Shown here piece by piece: positions 7,075 to 59,442 of a stretch of DNA of 64,000 bases; position 1 is the stretch's first letter, and every line of letters starts with the position of its first letter. This stretch comes from a bacterium (GTDB lineage: Bacteria; Fibrobacterota; Chitinivibrionia; Chitinivibrionales; Chitinivibrionaceae). The stretch is from NCBI GenBank assembly GCA_020048285.1, contig JAIFMU010000009.1, positions 1-64,000 of the forward strand, read 5' to 3'. The position numbers and the translations under genes are program-made. The notes below the pieces were generated by a model. It ran no database searches. It was not told where the DNA came from and saw nothing but the letters and a program-made list of their open reading frames with translations.

Positions 7075-7184
7075 GCATCCCCGTTTCTGGCCTGTACCGT
7101 TTGTGGAGAAAGATACGGCGCGGATATTTTGAATCTGCAAGGCTAAAATGAGTAGATTGTGAGCAGAGAATTTTTGTTTTGTAC

Positions 7185-7431
7185 AGACGCGATGTTCGCG
7201 TCTCCGGTTTCATTGTAGAGACGCGACGTTCGCGTCTATGATTTACCGCAATATAGAGACGCGATGTTCGCGTCTTCGATGATACAAAAATAGACGCCAG
7301 CATGGCGTCTCTACGAATTGGAATGATTTGCCGTACAGACGCGATGTTCGCGTCTCCGCGAACACAACACGCCAGCATGGCGTCTCTACGATTCGAGGAT
7401 TATTGGCCGTAGAGACGCGATGTTCGCGTCT
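7185..7431. repeat. Cluster of palindromic repeats (GACGCGA-TGT-TCGCGTC and GACGCCA-GCA-TGGCGTC types)
   Basis: Seven short palindromes lie in the gap between the TonB gene and the PIN-toxin gene. Five are type A (AGACGCGATGTTCGCGTCT or one base off) at 7185, 7219, 7257, 7337 and 7413. Two are type B (cores GACGCCAGCATGGCGTC and ACGCCAGCATGGCGT) at 7292 and 7367. Spacers such as TCGATGATACAAAAA and ATTCGAGGATTATTGGCCG are also shared with the cluster at 8177-8468, so the unit is composite. Small open frames across it only read the palindromes. No gene is seen in 7075-7510. Confidence 0.9.
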
Positions 7432-7510
7432 CCCCAATACTAAACGGGTGATGTTTTACCACCACCCGCATTGCGTTTTGCCTGTTACATTTTCCTGATT
7501 GCACGATATT

Positions 7511-8081: not shown

Positions 8082-8176
8082 TGTGACCCCTTCGTTTGTA
8101 CATTTCGAAGTTAAAATACGTTTTCCACCGATCATAGATAGGTTGAAATTAGTTGCCCCGATTCCCCCACCTGTAC

Positions 8177-8468
8177 AGACGCGATGTTTGCGTCTCCGGT
8201 TTCATTGTAGAGACGCGATGTTCGCGTCTCCGATGTTCGCGTCTGCGATGATACAAAAAAGACGCCAGCATGGCGTCTCTACGATTCGAGGATTGTTGGC
8301 CGTAGAGACGCGATGTTCGCGTCTCCGATGATATAAACAGGGCACCCATAGGGGCGCCCCTACGGAACGAATTGTACGGGCGATTTGCGCTCGCCCAATC
8401 CCGGGCACCCACAAGGGGCGCCCCTACAAATTGGAATGATTTGCGGTAGAGACGCGATGTTCGCGTCT
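8177..8468. repeat. Second cluster of palindromic repeats, with embedded GGGGCGCCCC repeats
   Basis: Type A palindromes (AGACGCGATGTTCGCGTCT) are at 8177 (one mismatch), 8211, 8306 and 8450, with a partial one at 8231. A type B copy is at 8260 and a broken one near 8485. Between them lie two copies of a different repeat, GGGCACCC followed by AGGGGCGCCCCTAC, at 8339-8363 and 8403-8427, and a GGGCGA/TCGCCC inverted repeat between them. The composite order matches the cluster at 7185-7431. No gene is supported in 8082-8565. Confidence 0.9.
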
Positions 8469-13507: not shown

Positions 13508-13602
13508 AAAAACAACTCCTCTGTGTTTATTTGATAAATGAATTAGTGATTCTGTGAAATGAGCTATCTTATTTTATTTTTAGATAGTTACAAGCTCTAT
13601 CT

Positions 13603-13838
13603 CGGTTGCTATCCCGCAGTGTTCGATTCTTTTCACAGACCAATTCGTTTTATCTCCCTATGATTTCGTTTCATTTCCCGCTCGTTTTCGGTTGTTATCC
13701 CGAACTTTCTCACTATTGGCTCTATCCGTGAACTCATTGTACTAACTCAACCATACTTGCAGTACTCTCCGATTGGTTTGATCTCAATTCGGTTGTTTCT
13801 ACTGCGAATATTTAACTAATTTTTCGGTTGTTATCCCG
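13603..13838. other. Candidate replication origin or rep operator with CGGTTGYTATCCCG repeats
   Basis: The motif CGGTTG[C/T]TATCCCG occurs in the same orientation at 13603-13616, 13689-13702 and 13825-13838, with a partial copy (CGGTTGTT) at 13790. Each full copy is also a dyad, CGG-N8-CCG, best at 13687-13704 where TTCGG faces CCGAA. The repeats fill the gap between parB and repA, where plasmid iterons or rep operators lie. Spacing is uneven (86 and 136 bases), less regular than classical iterons. Confidence 0.6.
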
Positions 13839-13839
13839 A

Positions 13840-14781
13840 CTAGTTTTGCTCTCGTTTGAGTAACTCTTCTCGTATATAGGCCATGATCTTATCCGAATCA
13901 TTGTATTCTATGTCTTCTGGTAGCTTAAATTCCAGTGTGACCTTGTTGCGTGTACTCACTTCAAAGCGATTCCACTTCCCTCCGTCAATTTTCCACCGTT
14001 TTAATGGTTTTTTGATTTCAGGGATCCTTTGTTGAATCGGACTTTTGTTTATGGTTCGCAGTGAATCGATGGTCATTTCTCCCGACTGAATTGCTGCTAT
14101 AACGGTATGAGCCCAATTCTCGATATCCAGAACCGTCTCCCCTGCCCCTTCTCGCTTTTTACACCCTGCAGCGATTTCGTCGAGATGTCCTCCACTTAAG
14201 CCTTTTAGAACGGCTTCGCGAAGAATTCCCTGAATCGTTTCGGGAAGTGTAAGCAGTTTCAGTATGCGGGAAATTCTAGTTTTTGAAGAACCCACCGCAA
14301 CGGCAATTTCATCAAGAGTCAATGAATCGAGTTTTTGCATATCAGCATAGGCGCGAGCTTTTTCAAAGGCGGTAAAATCTTCGCGCTGCTCATTTTCGAT
14401 TACGGTTAAGAGTCTATGAGTACGGTCGTCGATTTCTGCATCAACCGTCGCTTTCACTGTTTTCATATCGGGAAGAAACCGGCGAATTGCCGTGAGTCGT
14501 CGCCAGCCTGCAATTAGAGTGTAGCTTTCACCGGTGCGTCGCACTTGGATCGGACTGCGCAACCCGTGTTCGCGAATCGATACAGCGAGACTTTCGAGTT
14601 CACTACTATTGAGGCTCTCTTCGTCGCGATACTGAAACGGATTGTCCGCTATTTGATCTACAGGGATTTCGAAAATCTTCTCCCGCGATACCACTCCGGC
14701 ATTTTTTCGAACCGTATCCCCGATGCGTTCTAAATGTGGATCCGCAAGCATAGATCGATCTCGTTTGGCCAGTCCTGCCAT
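13840..14781 (-). CDS. parB: ParB-like partition protein
   Basis: 313 residues. The N-terminal ParB/Srx domain has NPFQYRDEESLN, the CTP-binding region IAGWRRLTAIR, and ENEQREDFTAFEKARAY. A helix-turn-helix follows (SLTLDEIAVAVGSSKTRISRILKLLTLP), which in the family contacts the parS site. The C-terminus is charged. The start at 14781 (MAGLAKRDRS) was chosen because AAGAGA precedes it; a GTG nine codons upstream overlaps the end of parA and is possible. It follows ParA in the usual order, and works with it to segregate a replicon to daughter cells. Confidence 0.85.
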   Translation of the reverse strand: MAGLAKRDRSMLADPHLERIGDTVRKNAGVVSREKIFEIPVDQIADNPFQYRDEESLNSSELESLAVSIREHGLRSPIQVRRTGESYTLIAGWRRLTAIRRFLPDMKTVKATVDAEIDDRTHRLLTVIENEQREDFTAFEKARAYADMQKLDSLTLDEIAVAVGSSKTRISRILKLLTLPETIQGILREAVLKGLSGGHLDEIAAGCKKREGAGETVLDIENWAHTVIAAIQSGEMTIDSLRTINKSPIQQRIPEIKKPLKRWKIDGGKWNRFEVSTRNKVTLEFKLPEDIEYNDSDKIMAYIREELLKREQN

Positions 14782-21874: not shown

Positions 21875-22948
21875 ATGATAACAGTTGCAATGAGCGGAAT
21901 CAACGCGATTGACAATCCCGGGCCGGGAACCGGAATCGCGCGGTCGCTGAAAGAGAGCGATCTAGAGATCCGCACAATCGGGCTCGCCTATGACTCAATG
22001 GAGCCGGGAATCTTTATGGACTGGGTGATCGACAAGAGCTACATCCTTCCGTGGCCGTCGTGCGATCCGAAAGTGTATCTCGAACGGCTGTCGTATATCC
22101 ATGACCGTGAACAGATCGATGTGATTATTCCGGCGCTCGACGCGGAACTTCCGCTCTATATGAAACTTCGCCCGGAAATCGAAGCAATGGGGATCAAACT
22201 GCTGCTTCCGGATATCAAAACCTATATGCGCCGCGACAAGCAGAATCTGGTTCAGTTGGCGCCGGAACTGGGACTGTTGGTTCCGGAAACGCTGGTCATG
22301 AGTTCTCCGGCGGATATTGTCACCGCGGAATCGATGTTCGGCTATCCCATGATGATCAAAGGGCCGTTCTACGAAGCGTTCAAGGTGAGAACCCGTGCTG
22401 AAGCGGAAAAAGAGTTCTACAACATGGCGGCCAAGTGGGGATATCCGATTATTGCTCAACAGTTTATTGTCGGCGATGAGTACGATATGATCGGTCTGGC
22501 GGATGGTCACGGGATGGATATGGGAACCATGGCGATCAAAAAGATCATGACTACCAAACTGGGTAAAGTGTGGACAAATGTGGCGGTTCGCAACGATGCA
22601 ATTTTCGAAGCGGCGCGCAAGTTCGTCACGGGACTCAAGTGGGCAGGTGGTTATGAGTTGGAACTCCTTCAGAAAGCGGGTACCGACGAGTTCTATCTGA
22701 TCGAAATCAATCCGCGGTTTCCCGCGTGGCTCTATATGGCGGCAGGATGTGGGATCAATCTTCCGGAACGAATGGTGAAACATCTTCTGAATATGCCCTA
22801 TGAAACTCATTCGGACTACGAAGCGGGCAAGATGCTGATTCGCTACACCGGTGAAATGATTCGGCATATCAGCGATTTCGAACAGCTGACAACTCTGGGC
22901 GAGAGTCGGGAAAAGACAGATAAAACGAAAAATCGACAAAACGATTAA
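21875..22948 (+). CDS. ATP-grasp ligase of the PqqD/decarboxylase cluster
   Basis: 357 residues, soluble. The layout is of carbamoyl-phosphate-synthase-like ATP-grasp enzymes: an N-terminal Rossmann part (ITVAMSGINAI, DVIIPALDAELPLY), the ATP-binding lysine region YPMMIKGPFYEAFKV, and metal-binding ELELLQ and FYLIEINPRFPAW (E-x-N-x-R). Such enzymes join a carboxylate to an amine or thiol through an acyl-phosphate. AAAGGAATAAAC precedes the ATG. Its substrate is not readable; with a PqqD-like protein before and a PLP decarboxylase after, peptide or amino-acid tailoring is the likely role. The last 20 residues are charged and run into the tandem array. Confidence 0.85.
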   Translation: MITVAMSGINAIDNPGPGTGIARSLKESDLEIRTIGLAYDSMEPGIFMDWVIDKSYILPWPSCDPKVYLERLSYIHDREQIDVIIPALDAELPLYMKLRPEIEAMGIKLLLPDIKTYMRRDKQNLVQLAPELGLLVPETLVMSSPADIVTAESMFGYPMMIKGPFYEAFKVRTRAEAEKEFYNMAAKWGYPIIAQQFIVGDEYDMIGLADGHGMDMGTMAIKKIMTTKLGKVWTNVAVRNDAIFEAARKFVTGLKWAGGYELELLQKAGTDEFYLIEINPRFPAWLYMAAGCGINLPERMVKHLLNMPYETHSDYEAGKMLIRYTGEMIRHISDFEQLTTLGESREKTDKTKNRQND

Positions 22949-22983
22949 ACGGAATGCAGGCGCGGGTTGCATTATTTCAACCT

Positions 22984-23301
22984 GTGAAGAATGATGAGTA
23001 TCCAGCCGTCAAGTATGACCGCGGAATCGTGAAGAATGACGGGAGATTGTTAAGAATAGGTGTAAAAGCGTGAAGAATGGCCGCGTAATCGTGAAGAATG
23101 AGTGCAAAACCGTCAAGAATGAGCATGAAAATCAGCAGATTACGATTGATCTTCCCTTGTCTTGAGGTACGGATTTGAACATGAGTATTCGGATAATGAA
23201 CATTTATGCATAACTATTGAACATGACCATGAATCGTCGAACAGGAATGTGAAACCGATGAGCATGACCATGAAACCGTTGAACATGACCATGAACGACA
23301 G
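22984..23301. repeat. Degenerate tandem array with 21-bp period inside the PqqD cluster
   Basis: Two sub-arrays keep one phase. The first has units starting GTGAAGAATG or close to it at 22984, 23008, 23029, 23049, 23070, 23091 and 23112. The second has units starting GAACATGACC or close to it at 23177, 23198, 23219, 23239, 23260 and 23281. Steps are 21 bases, with rare 20 or 24, and the gap between the sub-arrays is about three periods. Because 20- and 24-base steps break any reading frame, open frames across it do not look coding. It fills most of 22949-23433, which holds no other gene. Confidence 0.85.
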
Positions 23302-23433
23302 GGTCTTACGTTGGATCCGTGGTAAAAGAAGATTCGTAACGGGTACTTTTGGGAATAATTTTTGAATTCAGCCCCAAAGCGGGCGACAGTATACCAACAC
23401 AGGTCGAAGGCCTGTGAACAATAAGGAGAAAAT

Positions 23434-24783
23434 ATGAAAAAAAGATATATCCGCCCCACAATCGTGAAACAAGTGGTGGGAGTGATGAACAAGTTCGGCA
23501 ATGTATCCATGAGAAATATCAAGGAGGATATCGACGGCGCTGCGATCACCGACATGGTGGAACAGTACGGTTCACCGCTCTTTGTGTTCAGTGAAAAACA
23601 GTTGCGCAATCAGTATCGCCGAGCGTACCAGGCGTTTTCGACCCGCTACCCGAACGTGCAGTTTTCATGGTCGTACAAGACCAACTATCTTGGCGCGATC
23701 TGTTCGGTGTTTCACCAAGAAGGGGAAATTGCCGAGGTTGTTTCGGGGTTTGAATACCAGAAAGCGCGTCAACTCGGCATGCGCGGTGATCAGATTATTT
23801 TCAACGGCCCGTGGAAAAATGATGATGAACTGAAACTCGCGTTCGAAGAGAATGCCATTGTCAATCTTGATAATTTCAACGAACTGCACCGCGCCGAAAA
23901 GATCGCCAAAGCGCTCGGGAAGAAAGTGGGTGTGGGAATTCGACTCAATATGGACACAGGAACCTACCCGCGATGGTCGAAATTCGGTTTCAATCTGGAG
24001 ACTTCTCAGGCGGCGGATGCGGCGGCACGGATTGCTCGTTCGGAATGGCTCGAACTGAAAGGGATCCACTCCCACATCGGAACATTTATGCTCGATCCCA
24101 ATGCCTATGTACTTCAGGTGCAAAAAATGGTGAATTTCATGCTTCACATGGAAAATGAACACGAAATCGAACTGGAGTATATCGATATCGGAGGCGGATT
24201 CCCGTCCAAAAGCCGACTCAAGGGGATCTACCTTCCGCCGGAAGTGTCGGTTCCGGAGATCGATGCCTATGCCGAAGCGATCTGCAATACGCTGACAGCG
24301 GTTCTTCCCGCAGGACGCACCCCAAAACTCTACCTCGAAACGGGACGCCACATGGTTGACGAAGCCGGTTCGCTGGTCAGTTCGGTGATCGGTCAGAAAC
24401 AGCTTCCCGACGGAAATTCGGGCTACTTCCTGGATGCGGGAGTGAACATGCTCTACACCGGATCGTGGTATAATTTCAACATTGCTCCGGCAGTGGACAC
24501 CGGCGGTGTCCCCGAAGCGTGTACCCTGTTCGGCCCGCTCTGCATGAACATTGATGTGGTGGCTGATTCGGCCTATCTTCCGCCGCTACCGATGAACACT
24601 CCACTGGTCATGTGGCCGGTGGGCGCGTACAATGTGACTCAGTGGATGCAGTTTATCACCTATCGCCCGGCTGTCGTGATGGTCATGGAGGATGGTTCCA
24701 CGGAACTGATTCGGCGCAAAGAGGTTCTGGAAGATGTCACCGGCCCAGAAATCGTTCCGGAAAAGGTTCGGGTGAAAAAATAG
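23434..24783 (+). CDS. PLP-dependent decarboxylase (DapDC/LysA fold) with leader-like N-terminus
   Basis: 449 residues. From about residue 30 it is a fold-type-III decarboxylase: the PLP lysine K82 in SWSYKTNYLG, the barrel motif GIHSHIGTFM, GGGFP, ETGRHMVDEAG, and FGPLCMNID aligning with the cysteine region of diaminopimelate decarboxylase. Enzymes of this fold decarboxylate or racemise amino acids. Residues 1-22 are extra and begin MKKRYIRPTIVKQVVG. They carry Y-x-x-P-x-I, the spacing seen in leaders recognised by PqqD-like domains. Translation from 23434 is supported by AAGGAGAAAAT, so the extra part is made. Whether it is docked to the PqqD-like protein, cut off, or a relic is open. Confidence 0.85.
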   Translation: MKKRYIRPTIVKQVVGVMNKFGNVSMRNIKEDIDGAAITDMVEQYGSPLFVFSEKQLRNQYRRAYQAFSTRYPNVQFSWSYKTNYLGAICSVFHQEGEIAEVVSGFEYQKARQLGMRGDQIIFNGPWKNDDELKLAFEENAIVNLDNFNELHRAEKIAKALGKKVGVGIRLNMDTGTYPRWSKFGFNLETSQAADAAARIARSEWLELKGIHSHIGTFMLDPNAYVLQVQKMVNFMLHMENEHEIELEYIDIGGGFPSKSRLKGIYLPPEVSVPEIDAYAEAICNTLTAVLPAGRTPKLYLETGRHMVDEAGSLVSSVIGQKQLPDGNSGYFLDAGVNMLYTGSWYNFNIAPAVDTGGVPEACTLFGPLCMNIDVVADSAYLPPLPMNTPLVMWPVGAYNVTQWMQFITYRPAVVMVMEDGSTELIRRKEVLEDVTGPEIVPEKVRVKK

Positions 24784-44732: not shown

Positions 44733-46466
44733 TTACACTGAATAGGCGCGATAATACCGTTCGATATCTTTGTACAGTTTAAGATTCGCCGCATCGTGAT
44801 CAAACTCGTCACTACTGCCATGATCATGATCCATTCCCGATAAATCATAGACATAGAGAGGCTCATTCACAAATGAGCAACGATCTGGACCTGCTAGTTC
44901 AATCATTCGCGAGTTCGTGATTGAATCGTGCCGTTCTGATAGCCAGTTGTTCGAAGTTCGATCGAGAAAGTATTCGATTTCAACTTTTGATGCAATTGAT
45001 CGATGACACGATCTCAGGGGGAGCCACGCGTTGCACGCAGAAAGTGCCCAGGGACGACTAAAATCACAGTTTTCTAGGCGGTTCAAGAGTGATTTTGCCA
45101 CGTTGTTTTCATTGTCGGGATAAGCAATAAACGATCCGGATGTTTTCAATATTCCTCTCGAGTACTCCCGATCCAAGCGTACAAGCACCTCATCTCCATT
45201 GAGAAAATCATCGCCATCGAGTTCGATAATCACCGAGTCTGATCCAGTGGTAAGTACATTGATTATGTTGTAAAAGTTGCGTGAAGCAAACCGGCGAAGA
45301 CGGTTTTTCACTAAGACAAAAGGGATGTTTTTATCGGCGAGGTATTGGAGAATTAATTCGGAAGAACGGTCGGCGGATCCATCGTCAACAATCGCAATGC
45401 CGATATCAAAATTACCCTTCTGCGCGACAATAGATTCAAGAGCGCGCACAATCTTGGACTCTTGATTGCGAAAACAGATTGAAAAAATGTAGCGGTTGTT
45501 CAGTGGTGTACCGTGCACAATATCAAGCGTTTCCCACGTATCAATTTCGGTCGAAGCGATTCGTGCTTCTTGTTTCTGGAGTGAATCTGCTCTGTTCACG
45601 GCGATATCCCTGACCATGTCCGCAGCGAATTGTTCAATGGTGAGAACCTCTTCGGAATCAGAAAGGCGAGAGCGAAGTACACCACCGAAGGAGTTTGCAC
45701 ACTGCAATTTTGCCGATTTCATCAGTTCAATAGTGGCATCGGATTCAAATGGAATGTAGAGAAGTGCCGATTTTTTCTGTTCAAGAAGTTCAAGGATCTG
45801 TTCTGAAGAGATTTCTTGGCGGAAATATTCACCCCACGCGGCGCTGGCGATCATGTGGCGAACATCGGTTTGAGTGCATTCATGGGTTCCTACTAAGCGA
45901 ATGCGCTGGTCGTTGTTTGTTGCAAGGAATGTTCGCCGGAACTGTTCAAATGGATTGGAGTCGAGAGGATCGACTTCGAATAGAATGTGAACCATCGCTG
46001 GCGAAACGCAGGGAAACCAACTGGAAGCACAAGCTATAACGTCTGTATACCACGCGGAATTGGCTGGGTCGAATGGTTTTCCCACGGCGGTAAACACATT
46101 GTGTCGCGTTGGGTCGGGAGTGATTGGCTCAACCGGAAATGGCAAGGATTTTCCGGGATAGGAAAATCCTAGTAGATCTTTGACAATTCGCTCCTGCATT
46201 GGGCCAAACCAGATGATCTGATCGGCAGTTTTGAGATAAGGGACGACTGCTCCGGTGAGTGTAAAGATCCAAAAAACGACATAGGTTGACGCAGGGATTT
46301 GTACCCGTTCGAGAAAGTCGATCGCCTGTTGGTTTCCCACACAGACAATGAGCACATCCGCAGTTCCTGTTGGCACTTCCACCGTCGAAAGGGGAGTGTA
46401 TGCCTTCACCTGTTCTGCGAAAGTAAGAGCCGGTGCAAAATGATTCGTTATAACTTCTATTTTCAT
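44733..46466 (-). CDS. Two-domain glycosyltransferase, paralogue 3 (GT-B-like half plus GT2)
   Basis: 577 residues. Residues 1-280 look like a GT-B-type Rossmann half (IEVITNHFAPALTFAEQ, TADVLIVCVGN). From about 315 a family-2 GT-A domain follows: NRYIFSICFRNQESKIVRAL, IAIVDDGSADRSSELIL, and the metal-binding DGDD in IELDGDDFLNGDE. The acceptor region has WLSERHDSITNSRMIELAG. Start chosen at 46466 for GGAGG. It is the last gene of the operon, and a paralogue of the genes at 46490 and 56186. It probably transfers a sugar to an exported product of the locus. Confidence 0.85.
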   Translation of the reverse strand: MKIEVITNHFAPALTFAEQVKAYTPLSTVEVPTGTADVLIVCVGNQQAIDFLERVQIPASTYVVFWIFTLTGAVVPYLKTADQIIWFGPMQERIVKDLLGFSYPGKSLPFPVEPITPDPTRHNVFTAVGKPFDPANSAWYTDVIACASSWFPCVSPAMVHILFEVDPLDSNPFEQFRRTFLATNNDQRIRLVGTHECTQTDVRHMIASAAWGEYFRQEISSEQILELLEQKKSALLYIPFESDATIELMKSAKLQCANSFGGVLRSRLSDSEEVLTIEQFAADMVRDIAVNRADSLQKQEARIASTEIDTWETLDIVHGTPLNNRYIFSICFRNQESKIVRALESIVAQKGNFDIGIAIVDDGSADRSSELILQYLADKNIPFVLVKNRLRRFASRNFYNIINVLTTGSDSVIIELDGDDFLNGDEVLVRLDREYSRGILKTSGSFIAYPDNENNVAKSLLNRLENCDFSRPWALSACNAWLPLRSCHRSIASKVEIEYFLDRTSNNWLSERHDSITNSRMIELAGPDRCSFVNEPLYVYDLSGMDHDHGSSDEFDHDAANLKLYKDIERYYRAYSV

Positions 46467-46489
46467 TTGTTCCTCCATTGGAAAAAGTA

Positions 46490-48217
46490 TTACCGCATTG
46501 AAAAGGGGCGGTAGAGGGTGTCGAGATTTTTGTACATTTTGATTTGTGTGGCATTTTTATCGTGAATGTCACTTCCGCCGTGAATATGATCATCCCCTGA
46601 AATATCATAGATATAGAGAATTTCTGGTACGACCACACAGTTCTCTGCTCCGGCTAATTCGATCACGCGGGATTGGGTAATAGAGTCGTGGCGACATTTA
46701 AGCCAATCTTTTGTCCGCCGTTCGAGAAAGTACTCTATCGAAAGTTGGCGCAGGAGTTTCAGTTTGCAACTTCGCAGCATGAGCCAGGAGTTGCAGGCAG
46801 AGATGTTCCACGGATGAGAAAAGTCCATTCGGTTTTGCTGATCCATGAACGATTGTCCCATGTCAGAATCTTCGGGAAGTGTCACCAAGCGACCGCTTGT
46901 TTTTAGAGCTCCCTTGGAATATTCCCGATCGAGCACTTCGAGCACATAGTCGCCGGCAAGGTAGTCGTCGCCGTCTAGTTCAATCAGGATTGACTCGTCG
47001 TCCACGGTGAGAAAATGGATTACATTGTAAAAGTTACGCGCGGTAAACCGACGTTTTTCATTAGTGACGAGCACAAAATCTATCTCTTTTTCGCGCAGGT
47101 GGTTTAGAATGAGTTCGCTGGATCCATCGGTGGAACAGTCGTCCACTATGGCAATCCCGTAGTCAAAATTTCCTCGCTGAATCAATATCGAATCAATTGC
47201 ACGAATGATTTTATCGTACTGATTTCTAAAGCAAATAGAAAAGATATACCGATTCGAAAGCGGCGAACCGTGGACAAAATTGAGCGTTTCTGCGGTGTCA
47301 ATTTCGGTGGTTCCTGCGAATGCCCTTTGAGCAGCCACAATTTCCTGACTCTGCTGAGCAAGGAGTAACAACTTGTGGGAAAACTGTTCGAAAGTGATCT
47401 GCTGGTGGCCATCGACAAGTTGTTGTCGCGACACGCCCACGCTTTCACTCGCCGAGGTCAATCCGCAATAGGCCATCTGTTCAAGGATCCAGTTGGAACG
47501 AAGGGGAAGATAAAATGCCTCGCAATCTTTGTTCTCGATTAAATCGCGAACTTGCTGTTCGGTCTTTTCGTGTACGAAATATTCGCCCACCATCGATGTG
47601 GCGATCATAGAAACAATTGCGTCGTTCGATAGCGTTTCGATGTCGATTATTTCTACCCGTGGATCGGCGTTCGGTTCTGCATATCTAGCCTGAACAAACC
47701 GAGCGAAGGCTCCCTTCTGTTCTTCTGGAACGGTAAACAGGACGCGGATTGTTCCATTTTCGGGACACCAAAACCAATTTTTTGCCATGACACAATCGCG
47801 GAACCACTGATCATTTTCATCGGTAAAGGATTGGGCACAGTAGAGAAACATATCGTTGCGTACGGTGGGGGTAGCAATCGGTACAATGGGCATTGGCACC
47901 GTTTCACCGCGATAGTTCAACTCGAGAATACCACTGATAAGATCTGATTGCAGTTGATTGCTCCACACAATGTAATCGGCGCATTTCAAGAAGGGAATCA
48001 GATCTTCCGACATGGTAACAACGAAAAAGACCACAAATTTTTCATTGGACAAATTTGTCTGTTTGAGAAATGCAATTGATTCCGGGGCATCGATCGCCAC
48101 AATGGTCATATCCGCTTTTCCCGAAGGTGTTTTCACCTGTTCAATGGGCAAATGTGGCGCCATTCCTGCGAACAGATACTCTGCGGAAGATGAGAATGAG
48201 CACATTTCTATACGCAT
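46490..48217 (-). CDS. Two-domain glycosyltransferase, paralogue 2
   Basis: 575 residues, same plan as its neighbour. An N-terminal Rossmann-like half (SAEYLFAGMAPHLPIEQ, KADMTIVAIDAPES) is followed by a GT2 domain with NRYIFSICFRNQYDKIIRAI, IAIVDDCSTDGSSELIL, and DGDD in IELDGDDYLAGD. The shared words NRYIFSICFRNQ and RNFYN identify the three paralogues. The start at 48217 follows AAAGGAGTAGTA; upstream in-frame codons belong to the acetyltransferase spacer. Located 23 bases upstream of paralogue 3, so duplicated in tandem. Confidence 0.87.
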   Translation of the reverse strand: MRIEMCSFSSSAEYLFAGMAPHLPIEQVKTPSGKADMTIVAIDAPESIAFLKQTNLSNEKFVVFFVVTMSEDLIPFLKCADYIVWSNQLQSDLISGILELNYRGETVPMPIVPIATPTVRNDMFLYCAQSFTDENDQWFRDCVMAKNWFWCPENGTIRVLFTVPEEQKGAFARFVQARYAEPNADPRVEIIDIETLSNDAIVSMIATSMVGEYFVHEKTEQQVRDLIENKDCEAFYLPLRSNWILEQMAYCGLTSASESVGVSRQQLVDGHQQITFEQFSHKLLLLAQQSQEIVAAQRAFAGTTEIDTAETLNFVHGSPLSNRYIFSICFRNQYDKIIRAIDSILIQRGNFDYGIAIVDDCSTDGSSELILNHLREKEIDFVLVTNEKRRFTARNFYNVIHFLTVDDESILIELDGDDYLAGDYVLEVLDREYSKGALKTSGRLVTLPEDSDMGQSFMDQQNRMDFSHPWNISACNSWLMLRSCKLKLLRQLSIEYFLERRTKDWLKCRHDSITQSRVIELAGAENCVVVPEILYIYDISGDDHIHGGSDIHDKNATQIKMYKNLDTLYRPFSMR

Positions 48218-48227
48218 TACTACTCCT

Positions 48228-49364
48228 TTAGAATAAGTCTGTTGACCAAAGATATGGTGACTTTTCCGGCACCAGTTGTTCTGCCAGTTCCGCGTTGTTG
48301 CACCTGATTGAACCGGTGGGATCAATCAAAAGATCGTCTAGTGCGCGATACCCGTGCAACAGTTGGGAAAGATTCTGTTGAGGAACCGAGAATTGTTGAT
48401 CACTGTGGCGATCTTCCAGCGTGAGAACTCCTCTGGAACAGACCAGTGTTACCGACCCAAGGTCAGTGATGATCTGAAGTTCACCGGTGTACTCTTCACT
48501 AAGGTTTAAACGAATCCGTTCCTGCACTTCGAGGCGAAGTTTTTCCATCAGCGGTTTCAGGTTGCAGATTCGCGTCATCCCCATACCGTTTTGCGGATAT
48601 TCGGTGGCAACAGTGCACCCGTACCGGCGAATGAACCGCGCGAAGGGGTGAAGATCGGGAAGGAAAAAGTGAATGTCACCGAAATCGCGTGAAGGAATCT
48701 GGTCGAGTTTTTTCAGTTCATCCATGATCACGTAGTAGAGCGAATTGTCAAGTGTTTCGATTTCGCACACGTTCAAGACTGTTTCATTGCGATCGTAGAC
48801 AACATAGGCAAGTAGTTCTTTTTTCTCATTTTCAATGAGAAAGTGATCTGCTTTCGAGTAGAGTTCTGCGCCGCGGGCAAATCCCCAGAAAAACTCGCGG
48901 GTGCGCACAAATGATCCGGTCTGATCGGCGTTGTTGCGGTTGTAGAGCGCGAGCACATTTTCAAAGTCATCCACGTCGATTGGGCGAATGGTCAACCCTT
49001 CGCGATTGACTGCCACGTCGTGGATAAATTCATAATCCAACGTGTACTTGATCTGCGGAAGTGACACAGCAAAGCCGAATTTGTGGTAGAAATGAGGAAT
49101 TCCCAGTAGGGTGGAAATATCAAATCCTTCGCTGGCCATCCAGTCGATCGTGTCGTTCATAAGGAGTTTCATATATCCTTTTTTCTGATGCTGTTCCGGT
49201 GTGCGAACATACCCGATACCGCCGGTTCTCACCGGGGAAGTTCCCAGTCTGACCGTGAAATCCGTCACGGCCAGTGCGGAAATCTCTTCGTCGTTCAGGT
49301 AGAGATAGCGATGAAAATTCCGACCTTCAGAAACCGTTTTTACGCTCATATTTTCAGGAAGCAT
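48228..49364 (-). CDS. Eis-like GNAT acetyltransferase
   Basis: 378 residues. An N-terminal GNAT domain has the acetyl-CoA loop TPEQHQKKGYMKLLMNDTI (the R/Q-x-x-G-x-A-like site) and LLGIPHFYHKFGF. A second GNAT-like region covers about 145-260. The C-terminal 110 residues are of the sterol-carrier-like type (LVCSRGVLTLEDRHSDQQF), as in Eis enzymes that acetylate amines on drugs, peptides or sugars. GGAGGATCT precedes the ATG. It lies within the glycosylation-export operon, so amino-sugar or peptide acetylation is possible. Confidence 0.8.
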   Translation of the reverse strand: MLPENMSVKTVSEGRNFHRYLYLNDEEISALAVTDFTVRLGTSPVRTGGIGYVRTPEQHQKKGYMKLLMNDTIDWMASEGFDISTLLGIPHFYHKFGFAVSLPQIKYTLDYEFIHDVAVNREGLTIRPIDVDDFENVLALYNRNNADQTGSFVRTREFFWGFARGAELYSKADHFLIENEKKELLAYVVYDRNETVLNVCEIETLDNSLYYVIMDELKKLDQIPSRDFGDIHFFLPDLHPFARFIRRYGCTVATEYPQNGMGMTRICNLKPLMEKLRLEVQERIRLNLSEEYTGELQIITDLGSVTLVCSRGVLTLEDRHSDQQFSVPQQNLSQLLHGYRALDDLLIDPTGSIRCNNAELAEQLVPEKSPYLWSTDLF

Positions 49365-54218: not shown

Positions 54219-54424
54219 TATATCCTCTTATTGGTGTTATTCATAGTTTTATAGAGCGAAATTGAACTTTTGTGCTCCTCTATCATCCCGTTGAACATTC
54301 TGACCGTCCCGTTGAACATTCTGACCGTCCCGTTGAACATTTCGACCGTCCCGTTGAACATTTCGACCGTCCCGTTGAACATTTCGACCGTCCCGTTGAA
54401 CATTTTGAACGTCCCGTTGAACAT
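54218..54424 (-). CDS. Possible small protein of M-F-N-G-T-V-E heptad repeats
   Basis: 68 codons: seven near-perfect heptads (MFNGTVE, MFNGTVR and variants) and a 20-residue tail ending NNTNKRI. Its stop codon overlaps the start of the adaptor gene (TAATG), as in coupled genes. Each heptad holds N-G-T, an N-x-T sequon. No good ribosome site precedes the first ATG, and near-identical units could result only from slippage, so coding is unproven. Confidence 0.3.
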   Translation of the reverse strand: MFNGTFKMFNGTVEMFNGTVEMFNGTVEMFNGTVRMFNGTVRMFNGMIEEHKSSISLYKTMNNTNKRI

Positions 54425-54436
54425 TTCGAACGTTCT
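54290..54436. repeat. Tandem array with exact 21-bp period, seven units
   Basis: GTTGAACAT starts each unit at 54290, 54311, 54332, 54353, 54374, 54395 and 54416. The remaining 12 bases are mostly TCTGACCGTCCC or TTCGACCGTCCC. Each unit can form a short hairpin (GTTGAA with TTCGAC around CAT). It lies in the 261-base gap between the ABC gene at 54480 and the adaptor gene at 54218. Same period and same opening word as the array at 23177-23301. Confidence 0.95.
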
Positions 54437-56185: not shown

Positions 56186-57913
56186 TTATTCCGCTAAAAT
56201 CAAGGGGTGGTAAATCTTGTCAATGTGGCCAAAGAGTTTGAGATACTCTTCTTCCCACTGGCTGTTATCGTGGTCGTGGTTATCGCCGGAAATGTCGTAG
56301 TTGTAAATCACTTCGGTGACAAAAACCGATTTCCCTTCGGAAAGTTCGATCACCCGCGGTTGAATTGCCGCGTCGTGGCGATCGGGAAGCCACGAGTGGG
56401 TGTTCCGGTCGAGGAAATGGTTGATTTCCACGGCGCGAAGGAGTTTTCGCTTGCTTGTGCGAAGGTGAAGCCAGGCGTTGCACTTGTCGAGATTCCATGG
56501 ATTTGCGTAATCCATGAGATCGTGGTTGCGCTTCACTGCTTCTTCGTCCATGAACTCCTGCCCATCGGGATACATCTTATACGAACCGTTGGTTTTCAGG
56601 GCGCCCGCGGCGTAGTATTTGTCCAGAGATTCGAGCACGGTGGTTCCATTGAGAAAATCGTCGCCGTCCAGTTCCATGATCACCGATTCATCGTTGGTGG
56701 TGTAGAGATTGATCACGTTGTAGAAATTTCGTGCTGCGTAGTTGCGATTTTTGTTGCTTACCACGCAGACATCCACGTCCGAGTTTTCGAGATGCTTCAG
56801 AATCTGTTCTATGGAACCATCGATGGAACAGTCATCGACAAGAGCGATTCCAAAATCGAACTGGCGGTTTTGAGCGAGGATCGAATCGATACAGCGACCG
56901 ATTTTTTTCTCCTGATTGCGAAAGCAGATAGAAAAGATATAACGATTCGAGAGCGGTTTCCCTTTCACGATAGTCACATCTTCCAGCGAGTCATAGGGAA
57001 GATTGTCGAGCCATCCCTGCTTGCGACTGAGACTCGCCTCATAGTCTGATTCGATGCGCGACCGAAGTATCGCCGCCCACGTTTCATAGGTGATCAGTTC
57101 CGCATGGGCAAAGTTGTAACTGGTGATCCCATTTTCTGCTCGCACTTGTGGAATACCGAGGTATTTCAGGTCGGCCAAGAGAGGCGAGTCCACGATCAGT
57201 TCGTGAACCATGCCGCTGTTTCGCCGTGCCATGTGTCCTTCGTAATCGTCGAAATTCATTTCCGATTTGAAATACTGGAACTGAGAACAGGTTTTCATCA
57301 CCGCTTGAATAGCTTCGCGAGTCATTGCCGTTCCGTTGTAGAGGATCACTTCTGGCGTCGCACTCAGGGCAATTTTTTGCAGAGATTCAAAGTCGGCGGT
57401 GTGTTCACAGAACACCACCGTGTGCAGTGGCGAAGCGACAGCGTGCACGTCGGTGTGAAATGGAGTGGCAATGCGCTCTTCGATATAGACCCGCTTATCT
57501 TTGCTAAACGGCGTATCGATAACCACAAAGCAGGCTGATCCGGCGATCGCAGGATAAAAATCTCCCGTGGGAAGGGGCAGGACAATCGAGTTGTCGTTCA
57601 GGCGAAGAAGTTCTTCACAGATTCGTTTTTGGTATTCGCTCGTGAATACAACCAGATCCGCCAACTTGAGATAGGGGAGTGTCGAACGATAGAGTTCGTT
57701 GACAATCATAATCTTGTAGAGCTTTTCGTCGGGCATCATTTTCGAAAAGAGGGCTTTCCCGCTTTTCCGTGTGAGCGTGGTGATCAAAACCTGAGCATCC
57801 GCCGGTATTGACTCCACAATTGACAAGGGGAGATGTTCAGCCAGTCGTTCCAGAAGGTGTTGTTCCGGCGCGAAAGGATTTGTTGTGTCCGCCCCGATTC
57901 CGTAGATTTTCAT
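56186..57913 (-). CDS. Two-domain glycosyltransferase, paralogue 1
   Basis: 575 residues. The N-terminal half (KIYGIGADTTNPFAPEQHLL, ADLVVFTSEYQKRICEEL, NDNSIVLPLPTG) resembles the acceptor half of a GT-B enzyme. The GT2 domain from about 335 has NRYIFSICFRNQEKKIGRCI, IALVDDCSIDGSIEQIL, and DGDD in MELDGDDFLNG. Start at 57913 (MKIYGIG) is preceded by GGAACAG. It is followed by the exporter gene after 8 bases. Same plan as the paralogues at 46490 and 44733 but more distant, so an older duplication. Confidence 0.86.
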   Translation of the reverse strand: MKIYGIGADTTNPFAPEQHLLERLAEHLPLSIVESIPADAQVLITTLTRKSGKALFSKMMPDEKLYKIMIVNELYRSTLPYLKLADLVVFTSEYQKRICEELLRLNDNSIVLPLPTGDFYPAIAGSACFVVIDTPFSKDKRVYIEERIATPFHTDVHAVASPLHTVVFCEHTADFESLQKIALSATPEVILYNGTAMTREAIQAVMKTCSQFQYFKSEMNFDDYEGHMARRNSGMVHELIVDSPLLADLKYLGIPQVRAENGITSYNFAHAELITYETWAAILRSRIESDYEASLSRKQGWLDNLPYDSLEDVTIVKGKPLSNRYIFSICFRNQEKKIGRCIDSILAQNRQFDFGIALVDDCSIDGSIEQILKHLENSDVDVCVVSNKNRNYAARNFYNVINLYTTNDESVIMELDGDDFLNGTTVLESLDKYYAAGALKTNGSYKMYPDGQEFMDEEAVKRNHDLMDYANPWNLDKCNAWLHLRTSKRKLLRAVEINHFLDRNTHSWLPDRHDAAIQPRVIELSEGKSVFVTEVIYNYDISGDNHDHDNSQWEEEYLKLFGHIDKIYHPLILAE

Positions 57914-57951
57914 ATACTGTTCCATTCGATAATTTTTACTAGCTAACTGGT

Positions 57952-59442
57952 TTAACACTCAACGTCGATCATGAGGTGATTTTCAAAAATTGTTCGGCGA
58001 CCGATCTCTTTGTATTCCAATGTGCTGAGACCATTGGCTGATGTGTCGAGCTCGCCGGTCATCACTTCCTTAACGAGAATCTCTTCGTTGCGCGCACTGG
58101 TTCCGCCTTTTACATAGGTGTTGTTGGCGATCCCCTCGGTTTGGTGAGGAAGATTGCGATACCGTCCGCGACGGCGATGTGGTTTTGCCGCGGTCTGAAG
58201 ATTGGTCACTGCGGCGGTCAAGAGGTCGATATCAGTGATCAGCGCGGTATTGCCGTTTCCGCTAAGATCAATCAATTGGTTCGATTCAACGTTCGAGAAA
58301 TCATAGTGAAGAATCATACCGGTGTCGGGAAGTATCAACTGTTCGTTCGCATAGATCGATGTGATCTCTTCTGAAGACAGCGGGCGATTCCAGAACGCAA
58401 TGTCGGCGATTTCACCTTTAAAATGTGAGTGAGTTCCCATATCCCAACTAGGTGAATCGGAACTTCCCACGAGAAATGGTTCGCTGAAATAGTGGCGAGT
58501 TGCCTGGTCTAGTTTGACTTTCGAGTTTGGCGATTCATACCCGTTGAGAAAGAAACGAAGTTCACCTTTTTCGCAGTCAACGGTGCAGATAACATGTTGC
58601 CACAGGCCATGAGTATTGGTTAGATATGCCGAAGATGGTTCATTTTTGCTGTTCCAATGATAGCCCATGAGCACGTTGGTGTTCACCCAAACCAATTGGT
58701 CGAATGCGCCTTTGGAAAGGAGCGGCGTGGCGAGATAGGTCGAGTCAGATTTTCCGCGGAGATAGGGTGCGACATCGTGGCGCAAGTCCGTCTTTACGAG
58801 CATCGAGAAAGTGTAGCTACCTCGCATCATAGATTGAAGTGATTCTGTGTAGGGTATTTCTATTTTTGAAGAAACCCCGTTGAATCGGGCGACACGCTGG
58901 GTTTTGTCCACCGGATACACGTCAATATCGAGAAGGTTGTGGCGGCGACATCTCCAGAACAGGTCGTCGTCTTCTGCGCCCCAATCCCAGTAGTCATTGT
59001 AGTAGCCGTTGACCTGTTCGAACTGTTCTTTGGTGAACATCAGTGCACCACCGAAATTTTCTAAATAGGGAAGTGTGTAACCGTAATCGCTAAGGTAGTA
59101 CGAAATATGTACGGGGAAATCGGGACAGTAGGAGTAATCGCAACTATCATCTTCTGGTATCATATCAATATCGTGAAAACAGAAGTAGTCATACCCTTCG
59201 CTGCGAGCAATATCGAAGGCGATATTCTTGATTTTCCCGCGATTGAACAGCTTGGTATCGGCTTGATGCGCCACGAATATTTTGTGTTCAATTCCTCTGC
59301 GGGAAAGGTAGGTTGTCAACGATGGGACAAATTCGTTGAGATGTTGTTCGCGATTGCGATAGGGTACGCAGATAGCAAGTTTTTTTGTCACAGATTTCAC
59401 ACTTTCGTCTAAAATGTCTATCTGTGTGCGATGGCAATACAT
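57952..59442 (-). CDS. GT7-type galactosyltransferase with LamG-like domain
   Basis: 496 residues. Residues about 20-180 are of the beta-1,4-galactosyltransferase kind: AICVPYRNREQHLNEFVPSL, HDIDMIPEDD with the D-x-D metal site, NFGGALMFTKEQFEQVNGYYNDYW, and WGAEDDDLFWR. Residues about 190-390 form a concanavalin-like/LamG domain (VARFNGVSSKIEIPYTES, EIADIAFWNRPLSSEEI). It is the first gene of the minus-strand operon. No strong ribosome site precedes the ATG at 59442, and a GTG 14 codons further in is possible. The LamG part may hold the sugar or protein acceptor. Confidence 0.83.
   Translation of the reverse strand: MYCHRTQIDILDESVKSVTKKLAICVPYRNREQHLNEFVPSLTTYLSRRGIEHKIFVAHQADTKLFNRGKIKNIAFDIARSEGYDYFCFHDIDMIPEDDSCDYSYCPDFPVHISYYLSDYGYTLPYLENFGGALMFTKEQFEQVNGYYNDYWDWGAEDDDLFWRCRRHNLLDIDVYPVDKTQRVARFNGVSSKIEIPYTESLQSMMRGSYTFSMLVKTDLRHDVAPYLRGKSDSTYLATPLLSKGAFDQLVWVNTNVLMGYHWNSKNEPSSAYLTNTHGLWQHVICTVDCEKGELRFFLNGYESPNSKVKLDQATRHYFSEPFLVGSSDSPSWDMGTHSHFKGEIADIAFWNRPLSSEEITSIYANEQLILPDTGMILHYDFSNVESNQLIDLSGNGNTALITDIDLLTAAVTNLQTAAKPHRRRGRYRNLPHQTEGIANNTYVKGGTSARNEEILVKEVMTGELDTSANGLSTLEYKEIGRRTIFENHLMIDVEC

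Follow-up and report, generated by a model that had tools for sequence, protein, structure and literature searches.

A degenerate 21-bp array between two Fibrobacterota genes and its probable place in a genus-specific family of intergenic minisatellites

The unit lengths of variable-number tandem repeat (VNTR, MLVA) loci vary widely within one genome, and minisatellites that all have the same unit length would not be expected in one bacterial genome. Repeats of about two helical turns that share one orientation are known from plasmid replication iterons, in which one sequence is repeated at one Rep-bound origin. Genome-wide direct repeats have been described in marine Beggiatoaceae, an uncultured lineage, in which the intergenic heptamer TAACTGA, a repeat of no agreed function, occurs as one fixed sequence just upstream of start codons (PMC4679880). 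Additionally, an analysis with SPADE revealed an over-representation of intergenic heptamer tandem repeats, the reason for which is unexplained (PMC6344855). Our search for literature on 21-bp arrays in Fibrobacterota or in bacteria generally, which covered open papers, found none, and this is not proof of absence.

The array described here lies in a window of 64,000 nucleotides (the whole stretch of DNA that was analyzed), which belongs to contig C197 in a Fibrobacterota MAG. It occupies an intergenic interval of 485 bp (22949-23433), and both neighboring genes are on the plus strand. The relevant features of the window are as follows:

21875-22948, plus strand: left neighbor, ATP-grasp ligase gene (Pfam, tblastn, gap lengths)
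22984-23132, plus strand: sub-array A, seven degenerate GTGAAGAATGACCGCGAAATC units (sequence, TRF, unit scan)
23133-23174, unstranded: gap with no recognizable unit (unit scan)
23175-23301, plus strand: sub-array B, six TTGAACATGACCATGAAACCG units (sequence, TRF, unit scan)
23434-24783, plus strand: right neighbor, PLP-dependent (Orn/DAP/Arg) decarboxylase-family gene (Pfam)
54286-54433, unstranded: young 21-bp array, TCCCGTTGAACATTTCGACCG x 7, 96% matches (TRF)

The first-pass annotation of this DNA had described thirteen units that keep a 21-base step over about 320 bases, and this description was borne out by the unit scan, TRF, and the lag-21 identity. The 13 units, as seen in the sequence and in the unit scan, lie within 22984-23299 (the span was noted as 22984-23301). 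Those of sub-array A start at 22984, 23008, 23029, 23049, 23070, 23091, and 23112 (steps of 24, 21, 20, 21, 21, and 21), and those of sub-array B at 23175, 23196, 23217, 23237, 23258, and 23279 (steps of 21, 21, 20, 21, and 21). The first B unit starts exactly 63 bp (3 x 21) beyond the last A unit, in agreement with the earlier estimate that the gap between the sub-arrays is about three periods. TRF called the two sub-arrays separately, each with a period of 21. The lag-21 identity of 22984-23301 was 0.481, as compared with a mean of 0.268 (sd 0.028, maximum 0.370) in 2000 first-order Markov controls, and the best lag among 10-39 never exceeded 0.381 in 500 Markov controls. A weak signal at lags 21 and 43 was also seen at 13600-13840, where irregularly spaced copies of TTCGGTTGTTATCCCGA possibly represent another decayed array.

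The 20- and 24-base steps were measured and do disrupt reading frames, as the first reading of the sequence had held. The open reading frame over the array (23162-23365) has no Pfam match, and the coding of a peptide repeat was rejected, as the array reading frames lack such matches and these steps disrupt the frame. As to the proposed DNA- or RNA-level role, its first part stands, since this is a non-coding array at the DNA level, and its second part does not. No Rfam match was present in the 64,000 nucleotides of the window, which excludes a known RNA family, and the predicted RNA folding was weak or at chance (the sub-arrays gave z = -0.5 and -1.9, and the array at 54286 gave +1.1 and -1.5 when its two strands were folded). 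Other classes of repeats were discarded too. A CRISPR array is excluded by units that directly adjoin each other with no spacers, and a REP-like palindromic intergenic repeat by the hairpin potential of the units, as the inverted-repeat scores of 33 arrays did not differ from chance expectation (mean p 0.47). Plasmid iterons do not fit mostly unrelated units at many loci, or neighbors that encode an ATP-grasp protein and a PLP decarboxylase. An origin from heptamers (21 = 3 x 7) is excluded by lags 7 and 14, which were at background.

When arrays were listed, as the first-pass annotation had suggested, in 843 kb (25%) of the 3.4-Mb MAG, which is 70% complete, dozens of 21- and 42-bp intergenic arrays were found; thus, an isolated chance minisatellite, the outcome that the first pass had named as a refutation, is not what the genome contains. 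Intergenic and coding arrays were told apart by a home-made codon score, so the labels may err in single cases. The periods of the intergenic TRF arrays were 21 (17 arrays), 42 (10 arrays), 20 (4 arrays), and 41 (1 array), and ten other periods occurred once each. Of the intergenic arrays that reached 2.4 copies or more, 25/29 had a period of 20-22 or 41-43 bp, and in 21 it was exactly 21 or 42. The corresponding numbers were 5/21 in unrelated bacteria (1.16 Mb; Fisher p = 2e-5 versus this MAG) and 5/16 in the other Fibrobacterota sampled (p = 5e-4 versus this MAG). In a sister species of the same genus (G001, 141 kb), 5/8 intergenic arrays had a period of 21 bp and one had a period of 41. Examples of units found elsewhere are TCGTGGTTCGATGTAGCGGTT, CATCGGCGTTTTGTGTCGTTA, TCTTTGTCATGACGGGGTAAA, GGAGTCAGAACTCCCTCTTAA, and TGTACCCCGATCGACCGTGTA.

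Within the 42-bp arrays, 21 was the only internal lag among 5-37 that stood out (z = 5.0, with about 2 for lags 20 and 22), indicating that each 42-mer consists of two diverged 21-mers, and arrays of 63-65 bp (L254 and L256) are built of 21-bp sub-units. No array with a period of 31-32 or 52-53 was observed. Two-copy duplications outside arrays showed no more than a slight excess at 21, 41, and 42 bp, in part owing to array remnants. The autocorrelation that had been proposed for the whole genome was run on non-coding sequence and gave peaks at 42, 21, 84, and 63; its value as evidence is reduced, most of all in unrelated genomes, by a 3-bp comb that results from the crude gene calls. Taken together, these results show that a 21-bp step, or a step of 42 (41) or 63-65 bp in the form of dimers or trimers, recurs at many loci of this genome and of its sister.

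Several other repeats were noticed in the course of the survey. Contigs C13 (L020, 1-98) and C195 (L062, 1-80) of this MAG (G000) both begin in one 42-mer array in opposite orientation, so these ends probably join and the assembly breaks at arrays. The segments of L254 and L256 (G000:C220 and C263) are similar, each with a palindromic element followed by the 63-65-bp higher-order array. That element has a counterpart close to our locus, as a dispersed palindromic element (GCCCCAAAGCGGGC, TATACCAA, CACAGGTCGAAGGCCTGTG) lies at 23367-23419, just before the decarboxylase gene; its copies occur in both species of the genus, and several of them adjoin arrays with 21n periods (L248, L254, and L256). 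In the sister species, 8-bp CGTTGAAT arrays flank a related palindromic element (L255, G001:C313), which represents a second favored period there. Units of 34-82 bp made of the palindromes GAGACGCGATGTTCGCGTCTC and GACGCCAGCATGGCGTCTC form another class of repeats at 7179-7433 and 8150-8250, also present in L207. A repeat with a 67-bp period (GTTTCAATCCACACCCCCCGCGAAGGGGGCGAC) and a CRISPR-like look was seen at 8-174 of L155, at the end of contig G003:C10.

In contrast to the step, the sequence of the units is mostly not shared. When units from different loci were compared in every circular phase, the best match averaged 9.97/21, as compared with 10.01 for random intergenic 21-mers, and similarity was in excess only at 14 matches or more (17 pairs versus 7 expected), owing to a few unit families. 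A change of sub-family in phase, as between sub-arrays A and B, is general: in L023 a block of TCTTTGTCATGACGGGGTAAA gives way to ACTGTGTCCGAACGGGGATAA without loss of register, and three blocks are present in L012. The two-part array itself has one relative in its own genome (C199:28540-28820), with an identical order of sub-families; the gap between them is shorter there by about 62 bp, one base less than three units. When 40 genomes of the order were searched at the DNA level, the sequence of 22984-23301 occurred in its own genome only and in none of the 39 others. It could be argued that all arrays descend from one ancient dispersed 21-bp satellite and that their common period means common descent only, as clear relationships between some arrays extend across loci and species, and the higher-order 42 and 63 repeats resemble eukaryotic satellites. 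However, the resemblance between most units does not exceed that between random intergenic 21-mers, and young arrays exist without any relative, which makes this explanation quite unlikely.

Judged by the decarboxylase gene, the nearest named relatives of our MAG are Fibrobacterota MAGs (Fibrobacter sp. AS10tlH2TH_155 and Chitinispirillaceae). In seven relatives outside the genus, which have no array here, the distance from the ATP-grasp stop codon to the aligned decarboxylase start is 8-69 bp, as compared with 485 bp in our MAG. The sister species keeps the gene order TPR - PqqD - ATP-grasp, with an ATP-grasp protein of 93% amino acid identity, and directly after the ATP-grasp stop codon it too has a 21-bp array, of AGTTCGATGTACCCGTTTTGC units, before its contig ends, so that the ATP-grasp side alone is visible and the decarboxylase gene is not seen. 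As to conservation in relatives, which the first pass had raised, the sister has an array at the same place with a different unit. The AGTTCGATGTACCCGTTTTGC unit is of the L010 type, a family that occurs also at C3 and C111 of our MAG and at C301 and C303 of the sister. Thus, place and step are common to the two species at this locus, and the unit sequence differs. In our MAG the array separates two genes that lie close together in relatives, and the sister too has an array at this place, which could suggest a gene-specific control element, such as an operator array, an RNA leader, or a terminator, for the decarboxylase or the ATP-grasp gene. Against this, the unit is not the same in the sister; the array at 22984-23301 contains neither a sigma-70-like promoter nor a terminator; the RNA folding is as weak as described above; and arrays elsewhere follow no rule of gene orientation (11 co-directional, 5 convergent, and 2 divergent, a distribution close to that of the intergenic bases). 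We therefore consider gene-specific control very improbable.

The second array of the window, at 54286, is placed between an ABC transporter gene and an HlyD-like gene. In the sister, which lacks the array, 30 bp separate these two genes, as compared with 261 bp here, and the array has no relative elsewhere in this genome or in that of the sister. Well-preserved arrays at C194 and C5 are likewise without a relative in either genome. Local birth of three such arrays at exactly 21 bp needs more than slippage, which counts against the overall reading given below, and they favor a rule that acts at birth or survival. A run of related large glycosyltransferase-like genes lies at 44733-48325 and 56186-59442, with ABC transporter and HlyD-like genes in between; as read by eye from translations, this is probably a cluster for surface glycan or secretion. 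The comparisons at 54286 and at the ATP-grasp locus demonstrate that arrays were gained, lost, or replaced between the sister species. Most units are unrelated between loci, and some are common.

The first-pass annotation had also pointed out that 21 bases equal two turns of B-DNA, so that each motif would face the same side of the helix. The equality is arithmetic, not evidence, and neither helix-phased binding sites nor an RNA found support, as units are not conserved across loci or in the sister, the A/T harmonic at 10.5 bp does not exceed chance, RNA folding is weak or at chance, and arrays are gained and lost. A rival explanation is a docking array, to which a nucleoid or architectural protein of low sequence specificity would bind once every two turns; selection would hold the 21n spacing while the sequence drifts. 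At 10.5 bp per turn, no whole-number period below 21 stays in phase; the periods seen are 21 and its multiples, with none at 31-32 or 52-53; and the step of 22984-23301 has persisted in spite of a strong divergence of its units. On the other hand, the 10.5-bp A/T harmonic was absent (mean p 0.51 over 24 units), which excludes A-tract curved DNA as well, and the half-repeat at lags 10 and 11 within units gave no significant signal. Units and flanks have no common motif: 7-mers in 60 flanks, in which a shared motif would be a sign of insertion, were A-rich words with a few weak excesses, namely ATAATGA and TCGCAGA (6 versus 0.9 expected, raw values uncorrected for the number of words tried). Moreover, the sister dispenses with the array at 54286, and the length and place of arrays vary. 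Docking is thus an unlikely explanation.

We consider it probable, on balance, that the arrays are intergenic minisatellites with a fast turnover, which form a genus-specific family kept in a 21-bp register, and that the array at 22984-23301 is an old, decayed member of it. Such arrays would arise locally and now and then be copied from another array, for which the relative at C199 and the recurrence of the L010 unit speak. Slippage or unequal exchange would make them grow and homogenize, with whole 21-bp steps as the unit of change. Drift, replacement, or reseeding would follow, and the register would be the heritable feature. Growth in whole steps followed by drift would let the register outlast the sequence. 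The arrays would then act as fast-turnover spacers in intergenic DNA rather than sequence-specific regulatory sites; neither a conserved binding site nor an RNA gene is supported, and there is no sign of a sequence-specific function.

As for why the period is 21, two helical turns (10.5 x 2) are the obvious candidate for a rule of birth or survival, albeit a hypothetical one. Alternatively, copying between loci could carry the register while the memory of sequence fades fast. The register may therefore be either merely inherited, or enforced since only 21n keeps one helix face during amplification or packing. The strict form of the latter, in which helical phase gates the arrays, so that only units of 21n bp arise or persist and the genome contains about a hundred phase-locked arrays (as extrapolated from the sampled quarter), is a tentative idea that we regard as possible but doubtful; if it is true, the sequence of the arrays is irrelevant and the step is decisive. 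A genus with a nearly fixed 21n period and free sequence thus offers a natural test of whether helical geometry, an enzyme, or inheritance sets repeat length. Additionally, the arrays provide a lineage that is poorly cultured with fast markers, and they help to account for contig breaks in its MAGs.

By the tests made, the arrays belong to the bacterial intergenic minisatellites: they consist of head-to-tail units in several copies above chance, are non-coding, and vary between close relatives, as judged from one genome per species by the replaced unit at the ATP-grasp locus and the absence of the 54286 array. They are a variant of this class, since one period dominates the genome. With VNTR loci they share intergenic head-to-tail organization, turnover of copy number and sequence, and drift of units within an array; unlike in VNTR loci, 21n is common to nearly all of the intergenic arrays. 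Iterons are similar in their repeat of about two turns and single orientation, whereas the arrays described here have many sequences at many chromosomal loci. As in eukaryotic satellites with higher-order repeats, unit length outlasts sequence and dimeric or trimeric units occur, but these arrays are short, tens to hundreds of bp, and lie between bacterial genes. The nearest published parallels are the heptamers of Beggiatoaceae and the heptamer excess found with SPADE. The former are also genome-wide intergenic direct repeats without an agreed function in an uncultured lineage; in our case, it is the step that is fixed, the sequence varies freely, and the arrays take no set position relative to genes. 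The latter likewise represent an over-represented intergenic period without a known reason, with a period of 7 in place of a 21-bp unit that has no 7-bp sub-period.
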